From assembly GCA_020073445.1 (NCBI GenBank), contig JAIQFE010000001.1, positions 248,001-312,000 on the forward strand: a stretch of 64,000 nt of DNA, given 5' to 3'. Position numbers and translations under genes: made by a program. This document shows, in pieces, positions 3,311-9,068 of this stretch. Source of the stretch: Terriglobia bacterium (lineage in GTDB: Bacteria > Acidobacteriota > Terriglobia > Bryobacterales > Bryobacteraceae). Position 1 is the stretch's first letter. Every line of letters starts with the position of its first letter. Under the pieces are notes generated by a model. It saw only the letters and a program-made list of their open reading frames with translations. It did not search any database and was not told where the DNA came from.

Positions 3311-3574
3311 TTAATAATTGCGGATAGCGGCCTGATAGAGATACAACGCCGCCAAAGCCAGGCCGAGAATCACGGTCACGATCGTCATGGTGATTCCCCA
3401 CTTGTCGATGGCGCCGATCTTCTTAAACGTCGCTACTTGTTGAGGAATCAGGCGTTCCTCGCCTGCGGAGAGGTGGACATAGTCATCCTCCCGCATGGAA
3501 ACGAACTTCCGGTAAAGAGCCAATGCCAGGGTTGCAACTCCCAGAATCGCCCAAAAAATCACGAATGCAGTCAT
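3311..3574 (-). CDS. Small two-helix membrane protein
   Basis: 87 residues with two clear membrane segments: residues 3-21 (AFVIFWAILGVATLALALY) and about 61-82 (ITMTIVTVILGLALAALYLY). Between them is a charged loop with REDD and EERLIPQQ. A good ribosome-binding site (GGAGG, about 10 bases upstream) supports the start at 3574. It does not match a family I recognise. It sits convergent to the chromate transporter genes and upstream in the same direction lies empty sequence to about 3708. Confidence 0.7.
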   Translation of the reverse strand: MTAFVIFWAILGVATLALALYRKFVSMREDDYVHLSAGEERLIPQQVATFKKIGAIDKWGITMTIVTVILGLALAALYLYQAAIRNY

Positions 3575-3707
3575 GGTCGTATTGCCTCCAGGCCATTACA
3601 TTCGCAATCGGATTACCAGGCGCTTTGCGGGCTAGAAAAACGAAACCGCGGCGAGCGTCCTTCGAGCAGGCAGCTCACCGCGGTCGGTTCCGAAACGGAA
3701 AAAAACC

Positions 3708-3920
3708 TTACTTCGTGTCTGCGTCCTTACCCTTTTTGCCTTTGCCCTTCTTGCCGGTGTCCTTGCCATCCTTCGCGTCACCGGTCTTGGCCTCGCCCTT
3801 TTTCTTGCCGCCCTTCTTCTTCTTGGTTTCTTCCTTCTTCGTCGTGTCCTGGGCCAGGGTGACGGTGGCAACGCCGGCGGTCAGGGCTACGGCCAACATG
3901 ATGTTGATGAACTTCTTCAT
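3708..3920 (-). CDS. Secreted lysine-rich low-complexity peptide
   Basis: 70 residues. Residues 1-22 (MKKFINIMLAVALTAGVATV) form a classical signal peptide ending near TLAQ. The mature part of about 47 residues is nearly all Lys, Gly, Asp, Glu, Thr and Ala, with runs such as KKEETKKKKGGKKKGE and GKKGKGKKGKDADTK, so it should be disordered and strongly basic. The start at 3920 is chosen because it begins the signal peptide and has AAGGAG upstream. A stable hairpin lies in its 5' leader (3958-3976). No known function; similar small Lys-rich secreted proteins are common in acidobacteria. Confidence 0.72.
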   Translation of the reverse strand: MKKFINIMLAVALTAGVATVTLAQDTTKKEETKKKKGGKKKGEAKTGDAKDGKDTGKKGKGKKGKDADTK

Positions 3921-3957
3921 TTGGGTGAAATCTCCTTGAGTGTCTTGGCCGAACGGC

Positions 3958-3976
3958 GAATGCCATACCGGCATTC
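3958..3976 (-). promoter_or_regulatory. Hairpin in leader of lysine-rich peptide gene
   Basis: Perfect 7-bp inverted repeat GAATGCC / GGCATTC with a 5-base loop (ATACC), about 40 bases upstream of the start codon at 3920. It could be an mRNA leader hairpin or a dyad operator. No protein or ligand can be assigned. Confidence 0.4.
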
Positions 3977-4109
3977 CTATGGTTGCAACTCCACATGAAC
4001 AGGCCCTTAAGCACCCATTAAAATCGTTTCATTCTATAGGGTTAACACCTCCAAACCTTCAAATAACCCTTGTTCGCCCGTGAGTTGCCGAAACGTCCGG
4101 CTTGGCCGG

Positions 4110-4122
4110 CCCCGATCCGGGG
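4110..4122 (+). promoter_or_regulatory. Short GC hairpin before HU-like gene
   Basis: Inverted repeat CCCCG / CGGGG with loop ATC, 13 bases upstream of the ATG at 4136 and directly before the GAGGGG ribosome-binding site. It may control translation of the HU-like/TIR pair, but a stem this short can also occur by chance in GC-rich DNA. Confidence 0.3.
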
Positions 4123-4135
4123 TAGTCTGAGGGGC

Positions 4136-4318
4136 ATGAAACAGGCTGAACTGGCCCGGGAACTGGCCCGGGAAGCCCGGCTGCCGGCGGCGGCAGCCCA
4201 GGACCGGATCGATGAACTGGTGCACCGGATCATCAAGAATCTGCGCCGGGGGCGGCCTGTAGAACTGCCGGGCCTGGGAAAACTGGTAGCCCGCACGGGA
4301 GCCGGGAAAAAGCCGTGA
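4136..4318 (+). CDS. Short HU/IHF-like protein lacking the DNA-binding arm
   Basis: 60 residues. Residues 1-38 give the two-helix N-terminal part of the HU/IHF fold (KQAELARELAREARLP, then RIDELVHRIIKNL), followed by the beta turn GRPVELPGLGKLVA that matches the GxxVxIxGFGxF signature of HU proteins. The protein then ends (GAGKKP), so the beta-arm with the Arg/Pro tip and the last helix found in 90-residue HU proteins are missing. Start supported by GAGGGG just upstream. The stop overlaps the GTG start of the TIR gene by 4 bases (GTGA), so the two are translationally coupled. Likely role: dimer partner or nucleic-acid or protein-binding module for the TIR protein (inference). Confidence 0.75.
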   Translation: MKQAELARELAREARLPAAAAQDRIDELVHRIIKNLRRGRPVELPGLGKLVARTGAGKKP

Positions 4319-4914
4319 AGAATTCCGATCGGATCCTCACGACGATCCGGCGCGCCCTGGACTGTGGCAAGACCGTGGAGATCGACGGCCTGGGGAGGTT
4401 CCGGCCGGGCGCTGACGGCGCCTACGAGTTCGTGGCCCAGACCAAGCCTCAGGTATTCATCGCGTACGTGGAGGAAGATCTCGCGCTCGCGCGGCGCCTG
4501 CGGGACAGGATTGCGGCGGCCGGGTGTTCGCCCTGGATGGACAAGGACAAGCTGGTTCCAGGGCAGGATTGGCCGCGGGCGATCCGCCGGGCCATTGAGA
4601 TTTCCGACACGTTCGTCGCGTGCTTTTCGGCGCGATCGAGCTCCAAACGGGGACCGTTTCAGAGCGAGCTGCGGTGGGCACTGGAGTGCGCGCAGCGAAT
4701 GCCGCTGGAAGAAACCTTCGTGGTCCCCGTCCGGTTCGAGGCGTGCGCCGTGCCCAGGCAGATCCAGGAGCGGGTGCAGTACGTGGACCTGTTTCCTGAC
4801 TGGGAGGCCGGGATCAAGCGGGTGGTCCGAGCCGTGAAAAGGGCGGGGAGAGCCGGGCGGAAGCTCCGCTTCGGACAAGCCGGCTGCAGGCTCGAAAGCC
4901 TGACCCCACTTTAA
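4315..4914 (+). CDS. TIR-domain protein with partial HU-like N-terminus
   Basis: 199 residues. Residues 1-33 resemble the second helix and beta turn of HU (ILTTIRRALDCGKTVEIDGLGRF), echoing the motif in the gene before it. Residues about 46-175 form a TIR domain: start VFIAYVEEDLALARRLRDR, then WMDKDKLVPGQDWPRAI, SDTFVACFSARS, and FQSELRWALECA, which carries the glutamate expected for NAD-hydrolysing TIR domains, and the end VPRQIQERVQYVDLF. Bacterial TIR proteins often act as NADases or signal producers in immunity; no effector partner is adjacent besides the HU-like gene. GTG start overlaps the previous stop. Convergent with the spermidine-synthase-like gene, 14 bases away. Confidence 0.85.
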   Translation: MKNSDRILTTIRRALDCGKTVEIDGLGRFRPGADGAYEFVAQTKPQVFIAYVEEDLALARRLRDRIAAAGCSPWMDKDKLVPGQDWPRAIRRAIEISDTFVACFSARSSSKRGPFQSELRWALECAQRMPLEETFVVPVRFEACAVPRQIQERVQYVDLFPDWEAGIKRVVRAVKRAGRAGRKLRFGQAGCRLESLTPL

Positions 4915-4928
4915 AAGTTCAAGCCGTC

Positions 4929-7001
4929 TTAATTCAAACTTAGGATCGGAAGGATGCTGCTGTAGTCGTCGGTCCAGCCGCGGAACGTGGCCGCAGCAGA
5001 GGCCGGATACATGTTCGCACCCTCGAAGCTCGGGTTCTGGAACACATTGTTGTCCGGAGCCGTGATAAGAACCCATGTGGTGGAGTTGGCGAAGGTGTTG
5101 TCCGAGGCGTCGTCGGCTACGACAGTGGCTTTCTTGCCGACAAACTCCGCGCCCCGCTCGCACACCGGCGCAAGGTCCAGATAGCGATTGGAGATGTGCA
5201 CGGCCAAAACGCCATCGGGCTTCAGCAACTTGAAGTACAGCTGCATGACTTCCTTGGTGAGAAGGTGCACGGGAATGGCATCGCTCGAAAACGCGTCGAT
5301 CACGAGCACGTCGTAATTCGGCGGCTCCTGTTTCTCCATAGTGAGACGCGCGTCGCCCATGAGCACTTCCTTGTCTCCGGCGCAGTGCCCGAAGAAGGTG
5401 AACTCGCCGCGATCGGACAGTGACTTCACCAGCGGGTTGATTTCGTAAACCCGAACGTAGTCTCCAGCGCGGCAGTATCCGGTCATCACACCGGCACCCA
5501 TGCCGACGACTCCATAGCGCACGGGACCAAGCCCCTGCTTGGCCTGCATGGTCCGGCCGATGCCGGAGCTAGGCGCGTAGTAGGAATTCACCTCATAGCG
5601 ATGTTCCGGGTTAAGCCGCTGCGATCCATGGTTGATGGTCCCATGCAGCAAGTTGCGAAGGGCGAATTCCTGGCCGACATCGTCGTCCCGAATGCGCAAC
5701 TCGCCATAGAAATTCCGCGCGAATAGATGATAGCCCTTACGATCTTCGAGTTCCTTGCGTACCAGATATCCCGCCAGGAGGCCGACGCCGACAGCCAGGG
5801 CGAAACGCACCGGCCAGGGTCCCAACTTCGGGATTTCCAGGTTAAAGAGAACGATCGTTGCCAGGACGCCGCAGGCGACCAAACCGATGGGAAGCTCCAG
5901 GTAGGAGTTGAACACGCGCGGCGCGATGATGGCGACGAAGATGCCACCGACGGCGCCGCCCACCGACACCATCAAGTAAAAGAGCGTCAGGTACTGCGGG
6001 GCAGGCTTGCGCAGCGCTAATTCGCCGTGGCACAGCATGCAGCAGATGAACAGACCGGCACAAAAGATCGGGATCGAAAACTTGATGTGGAAATTTCCCT
6101 CGCCGGCATAGAGTGCGTACGCCATCCAGCCCAACGCGGGGGCGACCCAGGGCAGAAAGATCCAGCGCTGGTAAATCTTGTCGCTTTCAAAGGCAAGGAT
6201 GAAGGTCAGCAGATAGATCGCCAGCGGTACCACCCAGAGCAGCGGAATGGGCGCCACGTTCTGGCTCATGTGGTTGGTGATGGAGACCAGGAGCGTTGAA
6301 GCGCAAGCCGCCAGGCTCACCCAGAGCAGTAGTTGCAAGGCGCTGGGCCGCTCGCCGGATTTTTCTGCTGACTTCTCTTGGATCGCAGGAGATGCCGGAA
6401 CAGGCACGGACTCACCGGAAGCCGCCTCGCGGCTGACCCAAGCCGTGATCAAACAGAGCGCGGCGAACACTACAAACCCAGCGCTCCAGAAGTAAGCCTG
6501 CTGGCGCGATGCGAGATTCGGCTCCACGACAAAAGGAAAACTCAGCAGGGCCAAAAATGATCCGAAGTTCGATAGCGAGAAAAGCCGGTACGGGACGCTG
6601 CTACCGGTGCGGCGCACATACCAGGCTTGCAGCAACGGGCTGGTGGAAGAAAGCAGGAAATAGGGCAGCCCGATGGTAGCGGCCAGCAGCTCCAGAATGC
6701 GCAGCGTGGGATCGCCAATGGCCGTGGGTTTCCAGGACACGCTGGGCATGATGGGCAGAAGCGCACAACTCACAACCAGCAAGGTTCCGTGGACCAGAAG
6801 CTGCGTTCGGGCCTTGGCCAATTTAATAAGAGCGTGCGCGTACGCGTATCCGGCCAGCAGCGACAACTGAAAAAACAACAGCGCGGCGGCCCAAACGGCA
6901 GCCGAACCGCCGAACCAGGGAAGAATGATCTTGGCGATCAGCGGCTGCACCTGGAACAACAGGAATGCGCTCAGGAAGATGGTAACGGCGTAGAGGATCA
7001 T
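4929..7001 (-). CDS. Membrane-anchored spermidine-synthase-like protein (copy 2)
   Basis: 690 residues. The N-terminal ~430 residues are polytopic membrane segments (start ILYAVTIFLSAFLLFQVQPL), the kind of transporter-like domain often fused to PAPT enzymes. The C-terminal ~250 residues have the SpeE-like Rossmann fold: YGVVGMGAGVMTGYCRAG, VRVYEINPLV, VLMGDARLTM and DVLVIDAFSSDAIPVHLLT. The canonical GGGDG loop of spermidine synthase reads GMGAG, so true aminopropyltransferase activity is doubtful. The gene is 30 bases downstream of a paralogue on the same strand, so the pair is a tandem duplication and probably one operon. Location: inner membrane with a cytosolic or periplasmic synthase-like domain. 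Confidence 0.85.
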   Translation of the reverse strand: MILYAVTIFLSAFLLFQVQPLIAKIILPWFGGSAAVWAAALLFFQLSLLAGYAYAHALIKLAKARTQLLVHGTLLVVSCALLPIMPSVSWKPTAIGDPTLRILELLAATIGLPYFLLSSTSPLLQAWYVRRTGSSVPYRLFSLSNFGSFLALLSFPFVVEPNLASRQQAYFWSAGFVVFAALCLITAWVSREAASGESVPVPASPAIQEKSAEKSGERPSALQLLLWVSLAACASTLLVSITNHMSQNVAPIPLLWVVPLAIYLLTFILAFESDKIYQRWIFLPWVAPALGWMAYALYAGEGNFHIKFSIPIFCAGLFICCMLCHGELALRKPAPQYLTLFYLMVSVGGAVGGIFVAIIAPRVFNSYLELPIGLVACGVLATIVLFNLEIPKLGPWPVRFALAVGVGLLAGYLVRKELEDRKGYHLFARNFYGELRIRDDDVGQEFALRNLLHGTINHGSQRLNPEHRYEVNSYYAPSSGIGRTMQAKQGLGPVRYGVVGMGAGVMTGYCRAGDYVRVYEINPLVKSLSDRGEFTFFGHCAGDKEVLMGDARLTMEKQEPPNYDVLVIDAFSSDAIPVHLLTKEVMQLYFKLLKPDGVLAVHISNRYLDLAPVCERGAEFVGKKATVVADDASDNTFANSTTWVLITAPDNNVFQNPSFEGANMYPASAAATFRGWTDDYSSILPILSLN

Positions 7002-7031: not shown

Positions 7032-9068
7032 TCAGCGCAGTATCTGGATGATGTTGCTGTAGTCGTCCGTCCACGTCCGGAACCCTTTGCGCGGCTGCAG
7101 CGCGGAAGTGCTGCCGTCCTGAAAATTGGGGTGGGCGAAAACCGCGGGCGACTTCGACAACAGAACCCAAGTATTCGAAACGTAGTAGGCTTCCGAATTA
7201 CCTTCATCGTACACCACGACTCCGGTCCAGCCCATTTCTTGGGCGGCTTGAGCCATGATCGGTTCGAGATCCAGATAACGGTTGGAGATGTTGACGGCCA
7301 GAATACCATCCGGTTTCAGGTGGCGCCCATAGGTAGCGTAGGCTTCCCGCGTGAGCAAGTGCATAGGCACAGCGTCGCTGGTGAAGGCGTCCATGGCGAG
7401 AAAATCCAGGTTCTCGCTCTCTTTCTTGTTCTCTAGTGTTAGACGGCCGTCGCCGAATTCTAGTTGCTTGTCGGCGGGACAGTCCTTCCAGAAATCGAAT
7501 TTCTCTTGCGCGATCTTGAAAACCAGCGGATTGATTTCGTAATAGTGCAGCGTATCGCCGGCGCGGGCGAGCGTGGCGGTCACACCGGCGCCCAGGCCCA
7601 ATATGCCGATTCGAATCGGGCCCCGTTCACCCTTGCTGCGGATCGCGCGCGAGATCCCGGAGGTTTCTCCGAAATACGACGTCGGGATGCGCCCGCCGCC
7701 AGGGCCGAGGAGCTGCGTGCCGTGATTGATGGTCCCGTGGATCAGGACGCGGACGCCGTCCACACCGCCGTCGGGCGGATCGTCGCGAACACGCAACACG
7801 CCATAGAAATTGCGGGCGGCCAGGATGTATTCCTGGTTGGCGCGGCGTTCCAAGCGGGCCAGATACACGCCGAAGGAAAGCGCCACGATCAGCAGCGACG
7901 CGCGCACAGCCAGCGGCCGGGCGGCGCCATCATCGTCATAGGAAAGCACGATGGCGATCAGGACACCCAATGAGGCGATCGCAATCGGCATTTCCCAGTA
8001 GTTGGGGAAAATCCGGGGAGCTATCAAAGCGACGAATAGTCCGCCGATCGCGCCCCCCAGGGAGACCATCAGGAAAAATAGCGTAAGGTAGCGCGGATGC
8101 GGCTTGCGTTGGGCGAGCTCGCCATGACAGACCATGCAGGCGATGAACAGGGCTCCGCACAACATGGGAATCAGGCGCTTGATGACGTCGGTGTTGTTTT
8201 CGTACTCGCTCATGCCGTAGGTGAATGTGCCCAGGGCGACCAGGCCGAGCGGAAGAAACAACCAGCGCTGGTAGATCTTGTCGCTTTCAAACGAGAGGAT
8301 GAAGGTCAGCAGATAGATGCTCAGCGGCGCGATCCACAGCAGTGGAATCGGCGCCACGTTCTGCGTCAAGTGACTGGTGGTGGCAAGCAACAGCGTAGAA
8401 GCGCAGGCCGCCAGCGAAACCCACATAATAATCGTGGAGAAGCGCGGGGCCGGGGCATCCTCTTGGGCGGCCGCCTGCAACGCGTCGGTCCCGCTGCGGC
8501 TTTTCCAGGCCGCTAATCCGCAGGCGACCGCAAACGCGGCAAATCCAACGGACCAAAAGCGGGCCTGCAGGCGCAGGGCGATGTTGGGCTCGACCAAGAA
8601 GGGGTAGCTTAGCAGCGCCAGCATCGATCCGAAATTCGAAAGCGCGAACAGACGGTAGGGAATGACGTCGGCCTTGGTTCGCAGATACCAGGCCTGGAGC
8701 AGAGGACTGGTCGCGGAAAGCAGCGTGTAGGGCAGCCCTACAGTCGCTCCCAGCAGCAGCAAGATGCCCACTAGCGGATCGGCTCCGCCGACCGGCTTCC
8801 AGTAATCTTTCGGAATGATCGGCAACGTGACCAGGCTGATCAGGAGCAAGGTGCAATGGACAATGATCTGCTGCTTGGGTTTAAGGTACCGGATCAGGCA
8901 GTGCGCGTACAGGTAGCCGGCGAGCAGCAAAAGCTGGAAAAAGAGAAGAGATGCGCTCCACACCGCGGCCGATCCCCCGAACCACGGGAGGACAAATTTC
9001 GCGATCATCGGCTGGACCTGGAACAGGAGGAAAGCGCTCAGGAAGATGGTAGCCGCGTAAACAAACAT
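7032..9068 (-). CDS. Membrane-anchored spermidine-synthase-like protein (copy 1)
   Basis: 678 residues, paralogous over its whole length to the next gene (shared FLSAFLLFQVQPMIAKF, PWFGGSAAVW, SFESDKIYQRW, LLHG/LIHGTINHG, DAFTSDAVPMHLLT, WTDDYSNI). N-terminal polytopic membrane domain, C-terminal SpeE-like domain with GILGLGAGVTATLARAG replacing the canonical glycine loop. It is the first gene of the two-gene unit; start ATG at 9068. The 98-base gap to the divergent MarR gene contains the palindromic operator at 9139-9162, about 70 bases upstream, so MarR could also control this pair (inference). Enzyme activity not established. Confidence 0.85.
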   Translation of the reverse strand: MFVYAATIFLSAFLLFQVQPMIAKFVLPWFGGSAAVWSASLLFFQLLLLAGYLYAHCLIRYLKPKQQIIVHCTLLLISLVTLPIIPKDYWKPVGGADPLVGILLLLGATVGLPYTLLSATSPLLQAWYLRTKADVIPYRLFALSNFGSMLALLSYPFLVEPNIALRLQARFWSVGFAAFAVACGLAAWKSRSGTDALQAAAQEDAPAPRFSTIIMWVSLAACASTLLLATTSHLTQNVAPIPLLWIAPLSIYLLTFILSFESDKIYQRWLFLPLGLVALGTFTYGMSEYENNTDVIKRLIPMLCGALFIACMVCHGELAQRKPHPRYLTLFFLMVSLGGAIGGLFVALIAPRIFPNYWEMPIAIASLGVLIAIVLSYDDDGAARPLAVRASLLIVALSFGVYLARLERRANQEYILAARNFYGVLRVRDDPPDGGVDGVRVLIHGTINHGTQLLGPGGGRIPTSYFGETSGISRAIRSKGERGPIRIGILGLGAGVTATLARAGDTLHYYEINPLVFKIAQEKFDFWKDCPADKQLEFGDGRLTLENKKESENLDFLAMDAFTSDAVPMHLLTREAYATYGRHLKPDGILAVNISNRYLDLEPIMAQAAQEMGWTGVVVYDEGNSEAYYVSNTWVLLSKSPAVFAHPNFQDGSTSALQPRKGFRTWTDDYSNIIQILR

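Follow-up and report, generated by a model that had tools for sequence, protein, structure and literature searches.

Our analysis of a 64,000-nucleotide stretch of genomic DNA from a Terriglobia bacterium (the window) centres on two overlapping genes, which encode an armless HU-type protein (HU1) and a protein that joins an HU-like half-domain to a TIR domain (HU2-TIR). The two genes are coupled and occur together, the folds and the glutamate of the TIR domain are conserved, and the pair descends along genus lines. We infer a physical heterodimer of the two proteins that responds to a signal and gates an enzyme activity. The explanation as a whole, in which a complex of HU1 and HU2-TIR would gate a TIR NAD enzyme and act as an inherited switch of the family, is in our judgement a little short of an even chance.

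Layout of the gene pair

HU1 runs from an ATG to a TGA and HU2-TIR from a GTG to a TAA codon (Table 1). The GTGA coupling named in the original prediction was found as described. A 4-base overlap is the commonest arrangement, occurring in 29 of the 60 loci that carry the two genes, namely the window and 59 relatives, when the codon nearest the HU1 stop is taken as the start of HU2-TIR. A long antisense ORF (4042-5163) was taken as mechanical because conservation sits in the forward frames.

Table 1. Positions of the HU1/HU2-TIR pair and its parts in the window
Feature	Position	Strand	Evidence
HU1, HU/IHF-type protein of 60 aa without the arm: helices 1 and 2, beta-hairpin, basic tail	4136..4318	+	PF00216 32.5 bits; Foldseek HU/IHF
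HU1/HU2-TIR stop/start overlap, GTGA	4315..4318	+	sequence
HU2-TIR, 199 aa, HU-like half-domain and TIR_2 domain	4315..4914	+	ORF, Pfam, AlphaFold2
HU2 half-domain, residues 1-41: one helix and three-strand hairpin, without helix 1 and arm	4315..4437	+	AlphaFold2 secondary structure, alignment A1, sub-threshold Pfam HU matches
TIR_2 domain with C-terminal helix, residues 46-188	4450..4878	+	PF13676 86.8 bits; Foldseek best match SPARTA TIR-APAZ
E118 codon, presumed catalytic glutamate	4666..4668	+	kept in 62/62 and 59/59 copies; aligned with SPARTA TIR E77

A natural fusion of the two genes was suspected in two loci (L020 and L037) and rejected, as tblastn had joined two frames there and the frames differ. 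A single open frame holding both HU1 and HU2-TIR was found in none of 67 stretches tested, three of which could show none (L177, with 100 bases; L173, cut upstream; L160, without HU1). Upstream of HU1, no regulatory motif stood out in 102 stretches: the top k-mers were barely above the best of 20 single-base shuffles (6-mers 18 versus 14, 7-mers 10 versus 11, 8-mers 7 versus 5), and a motif resembling a ribosome site was present within 20 bases in just 23 of the 102. Rfam gave no match at gathering score in positions 3500-5200. A small reverse-strand ORF upstream of the pair (3708-3974) has a signal-like start, a lysine-rich low-complexity tail and no Pfam match.

HU1 is an HU-type protein without the arm

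The first protein had been described as a 60-residue HU/IHF fold that ends after the turn and lacks the arm, and the Pfam comparison bears this out. HU1 exceeds the PF00216 cut-off of 22.4 bits and matches profile positions 1-58 of 90, where the match stops; the arm and the last helix are therefore missing. The profile is matched by 52 of 57 HU1 proteins at E≤0.01. The AlphaFold2 model (pLDDT 80.3, pTM 0.56) consists of two helices and a hairpin, and the 50 Foldseek matches listed were all HU, IHF or complexes containing them, with TM scores (query) of 0.68-0.81. Their E-values were weak (best 0.023, none at 0.001 among the 50 matches listed), yet the matches were consistent. HU1 thus shares helices 1 and 2 as well as the GLG turn with the HU/IHF nucleoid proteins of PF00216, and its structural matches include both HU and IHF chains; it differs in lacking the arm and the C-terminal helix and in its length of 60 residues. 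Three other PF00216 matches in the same genome cover 84-90 of the 90 profile positions.

The RNP motif, which we take to be that of the DNA-binding arm of HU and IHF, was present in none of 97 distinct HU1 proteins. The GLG-type turn was absent from eight of the 97 by a strict pattern (all eight by eye) and from four by a looser one, and the helix sequences of these proteins still align. Where a genus label was available, the turn-less proteins fell in genera g8, g42 and g50; one more, from genome G028, was recognized by eye. HU1 is basic, with a net charge of +7 in the window and a median of +6.5 over 60 proteins, so that contact with nucleic acid is still conceivable. Between the window and its three nearest relatives, dN/dS of HU1 was 0.13-0.41.

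HU2-TIR joins an HU-like piece to a conserved TIR domain

That the second protein consists of a helix and a turn followed by a full TIR domain with its glutamate, as the sequence had first suggested, agrees with the AlphaFold2 model, the TIR_2 score and the presence of E118 (Table 1). The TIR_2 match lies far above the cut-off of 28 bits and spans positions 1-121 of 122, and all 57 HU2-TIR members match the profile at E≤0.01. The N-terminal piece gave sub-threshold matches only, to HU-CCDC81_bac_2 (PF18175; 17.2 bits against a cut-off of 35). In the model (mean pLDDT 88.3, pTM 0.83), a helix at residues 3-16 is followed by strands at 21-23, 27-31 and 37-41 and then by the TIR fold. The best Foldseek match was the TIR of SPARTA (TIR-APAZ, E=6e-8), followed by SARM1; TIR domains of MyD88 filaments were also matched. 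SARM1 is an NADase, and some TIR domains, for example that of MyD88, serve as scaffolds.

Glutamate E118, which lies outside all patterns used to search for relatives, was kept in 62 of 62 copies and in 59 of 59 full-length copies from fetched genomes, so that the loss of the residue in relatives, which would have spoken against the original prediction, was never seen. By a hand count on the printed alignment, the SPARTA residue aligned with it is E77. E77A serves as catalytic mutant in a TIR-APAZ/Ago study, in which the numbering may be that of another homologue (PMC10474274). By this glutamate HU2-TIR is presumed to be an NADase-type TIR protein. The turn glycine G27 was kept in 61 of 62 and 59 of 59 copies, the exception being a copy that ends before it (L062), and W74, D76, G83 and W86, presumably residues of the TIR pocket or BB loop, were invariant in 57 aligned rows and in the 59 fetched copies. 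dN/dS of HU2-TIR between the window and its three nearest relatives was 0.16-0.19.

Gene neighbourhood

The DNA-repair gene uvrC (TIGR00194 above cut-off) lies close downstream of the pair in 22 of the 61 loci from the scan; among the 60 fetched stretches it does so in 24, which span seven genera. The gene between them encodes, on the opposite strand, a TPR protein with TPR_11 and YfiO above the Pfam cut-offs, which stays below the cut-off of NCBIfam BamD. Neither the window nor the eight fetched stretches of its genus showed a uvrC relative; three of these eight carry a fused MFS/spermidine-synthase-type gene as the window does. In the window, two similar large proteins are encoded in tandem on the reverse strand (4929-7001 and 7032-9068), both above the NCBIfam cut-off for the fused MFS/spermidine synthase and without a Pfam match at 0.001.

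In one alternative, close to the original prediction of a pair that senses DNA or a nucleoid change, binding of the HU1/HU2 dimer to DNA or the nucleoid would switch on the TIR domain when DNA is damaged, bent or foreign. The HU ancestry of HU1, its basic character and the proximity of uvrC would fit such a sensor. However, the arm motif is missing from all 97 HU1 proteins, some have lost the hairpin turn itself, the first 40 residues of HU2-TIR have a median charge of 0, the gene separating the pair from uvrC runs the opposite way, and the window has no detected uvrC relative at all. We therefore regard DNA gating as improbable and the idea that HU1 saddles DNA as doubtful. Because some HU1 proteins have no turn and keep both helices, while HU2 keeps its turn glycine, pairing between proteins is favoured over DNA saddling.

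A defence island around the pair was also sought and rejected. The nine neighbouring ORFs gave weak PADLOC matches only, in a MarR-type ORF and in one MFS/spermidine-synthase-type ORF, and no clear defence gene was found among them. The TIR part of HU2-TIR itself matches the PADLOC defence model Aga_TIR-PNTD at 57 bits, which counts against a reading outside defence. Elsewhere in the same genome, eight of its 17 TIR_2 matches lie within 22 kb (contig C64, 9973-31811), a cluster suggestive of a TIR-rich conflict island, whereas the TIR gene of the window stands alone.

HU1 and HU2-TIR occur together

A scan of genome contigs yielded 62 loci, of which one distant TIR protein (L070; 24% identity, Saprospiraceae) was dropped to leave 61 relatives. 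HU1 was found directly upstream of HU2-TIR in 59 of these by a profile built from the loci. In the other two, L030 and L062, a contig end lies 112 or 19 bases from the start of the match, and both were left out of the HU1 and gap counts for this reason. With the near copies L042, L045 and L065 set aside, 57 of the 60 pairs entered alignments A1 and A2.

We also fetched stretches from 60 genomes, chosen among the matches of the family, order and class draws described below and mainly from genera with several matches rather than at random. One of them (G064) carries the TIR part only, without HU1, and was dropped; HU1 lay just upstream and on the same strand in 59 of the 59 full-length copies that remained. 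As 21 of these repeat scan loci, the two sets come to about 97 distinct HU1 loci. Six further HU2-TIR stretches had HU1 in five cases, and the sixth is cut at a contig end. Because HU1 adjoins HU2-TIR in about 97 distinct loci, the pairing is beyond chance. Homologues in which the genes are not adjacent were looked for and none was found in the sets examined, where the two genes always stood together.

In the reverse direction, the HU1 profile gave matches of at least 53.9 bits in six of 21 chosen genomes, all beside a full HU2-TIR, and no other match above 33.7 bits. Some true HU1 proteins score just 36-43 bits, a range also reached elsewhere by HU proteins presumed to be ordinary, so that a degenerate orphan HU1 could be missed. 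Among 250 genomes of the class, 59 matched at E≤1e-8: 44 of the window's own family, G223 of family f8 and 14 in families f5, f9 and f11. The last 14, candidates for orphan HU1 genes, scored 37.9-42.5 bits in ORFs of 97-169 residues and were taken as ordinary HU proteins by score and length.

Distribution and descent

Of 150 genomes drawn from the window's family, 122 matched HU2-TIR at E≤1e-20; 116 matches include the HU2 part, with one copy each, and six are partial or TIR-only. As 28 family genomes gave no match at this threshold, some lineages, at least, can do without the pair. With the family genomes restricted to a completeness of 90% or more and a contamination of 5% or less, 91 of 109 matched. 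A draw of 150 genomes from the order gave 109 matches, all in the own family, and 299 genomes of the class gave 58 at 1e-35, namely 56 of the own family (G064 with the TIR part only), G223 and the TIR-only G418. Of 297 genomes of the phylum seven matched, and the HU2 part was included in just the three of the window's genus. These draws overlap, and because the first-pass search scored a limited number of candidates per genome, the absences are not proofs. The one HU2-bearing copy outside the family among the sampled genomes, that of G223 (locus L159), falls within the genus of the window on the tree; with the genome's contamination value of 4, this points to contamination or recent transfer. 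A record titled Bordetella parapertussis (L013, CALQCC020000017.1) carries the acidobacterial pair, and its title looks wrong.

A maximum-likelihood tree was built from 59 HU2-TIR proteins, of which 57 belong to 12 genera; on it the genus labels change 12 times, with a minimum of 11. Shuffled labels gave a mean of 43.0 changes, and none of 200 shuffles was as low as 12. Nine genera each form one side of a branch, and two changes are needed for each of g5, g47 and g12. When protein distances were compared between HU2-TIR and UvrC at 20 loci, the Mantel r was 0.50 (none of 2000 permutations as high) and the Spearman coefficient -0.06. This outcome is mixed and, though it weighs less than the tree test, it still stands. 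Neither the viral contigs nor the phages searched yielded a confirmed relative, and in the plasmid search seven records matched the TIR part only, with no copy that had the HU part. Since the pair is single-copy, present in 116 of 150 family genomes, placed along genus labels on the tree and set in a uvrC neighbourhood in seven genera, it looks vertically inherited and near-core and not obviously a mobile defence system. The label of an immunity pair in the original prediction is not supported, given this single-copy, family-wide descent along genus lines, an HU part that was not found in the phage, viral and plasmid collections, and the lack of a clear defence gene among the nine neighbouring ORFs of the window.

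The same observations bear on a toxin-antitoxin function, in which HU1 would be the antitoxin that keeps a toxic TIR NADase inactive until it is lost on stress or phage attack. A small upstream gene that overlaps the gene of a presumed enzyme and is never apart from it in the sets examined would suit such a system. Single-copy, family-wide inheritance along genus lines and searches of phages, viruses and plasmids that gave no HU-bearing copy argue against it, and we rank a toxin-antitoxin pair as more improbable still than DNA gating.

Proposed mechanism

HU2 is short by about one helix: the median number of residues before the turn glycine is 29 in HU2 and 47 in HU1 (57 rows each), a difference of about 18. 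HU1 and HU2 could therefore together form an HU-like dimer core, and the earlier view of the two proteins as complementary HU parts gains from HU2 being without helix 1. We hypothesize that HU1 and HU2-TIR are two subunits of one complex, in which HU1 would supply the helix pair missing from the HU2 half-domain to give a joint dimer core without DNA arms. This core would tether and order the TIR domains. At rest it may hold them apart, and on some signal it may let them stack; once stacked, the TIR domains would use E118 to cleave NAD+ or to produce a signal derived from NAD. On this view the pair would serve a Bryobacteraceae-type acidobacterial family as a regulatory or stress-response switch, present in one copy and passed down vertically, rather than as a mobile defence cassette.

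According to the TIR-APAZ/Ago study, SPARTA TIR domains act when assembled (PMC10474274), so a partner that sets the assembly would be the simplest form of control. Our best reading is that HU1 either assembles or restrains a TIR enzyme that processes NAD.

The MyD88 filament TIR domains among the Foldseek matches could instead point to a non-enzymatic TIR assembly domain and a pair that serves as structural adaptor; given E118 without exception and W74, D76, G83 and W86 invariant in the 57 rows and the 59 fetched copies, we give this little probability. Equally little goes to mere operon neighbours without physical contact, with HU1 acting alone and the pairing reflecting co-regulation, against which stand the absence of any exception across about 97 distinct loci, the related and complementary HU pieces and the start/stop overlap in many loci.

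Comparison with known systems

In bacteria, TIR proteins are best known as immune effectors. The TIR domain of SPARTA is the best structural match of HU2-TIR and has the same catalytic-type glutamate. In the TIR-APAZ/Ago study, too, the design comprises two genes and the TIR domain is under the control of its partner complex (PMC10474274), as we propose here for HU1 and HU2-TIR. In contrast to SPARTA, HU2-TIR has no APAZ match in Pfam, its partner is an armless HU protein and the pair is inherited along genus lines. No Argonaute match was found among the nine neighbouring ORFs either, and by these features the pair does not belong to SPARTA. The comparison with Thoeris was likewise negative, as HU2-TIR scored only 10.6 bits against ThsB and no ThsA match was found among the same nine ORFs.

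Both window proteins and many relatives gave sub-threshold matches to the HU-CCDC81 (PF18175) and HU-HIG (PF18291) families. The window proteins stay below the Pfam cut-offs, however, and the Pfam descriptions of both families name no TIR domain. Such HU clades were reportedly proposed by Burroughs et al. in 2017 to act in conflicts or as protein-interaction modules. The TIR part is close to other TIR_2 proteins of Acidobacteriota (E-values of 1.8e-37 to 3.6e-41 in four phylum members), but none of the five scanned has an HU part: two are FGE-sulfatase fusions, one carries CarboxypepD_reg and two have no other domain. The two FGE-sulfatase fusions, L083 and L084, are among the nearest HU-less TIR_2 relatives elsewhere in the phylum.

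The open-access literature that we searched yielded no paper describing a TIR protein with an HU-type partner or a gene pair of this sort, in keeping with the earlier view that the architecture is not standard. The domains are of kinds already known; what is new is the two-gene architecture together with its inheritance, which resembles that of a core gene. HU1 and HU2-TIR are small and directly testable in E. coli.

A family-wide, inherited housekeeping signalling switch, in which a split, armless HU dimer controls TIR assembly and so regulates NAD metabolism, is a tentative reading that we hold to be rather less likely than the general explanation given at the outset. If true, TIR assembly would be controlled in a way that is new, the HU fold would serve without its DNA-binding arms, and a nucleoid-protein fold would have come to regulate NAD metabolism. 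In the untruncated loci examined the HU-fold partner was never missing, and the TIR protein behaves much as a near-core gene would in this soil family; if confirmed, this would place a TIR domain in ordinary cell regulation.
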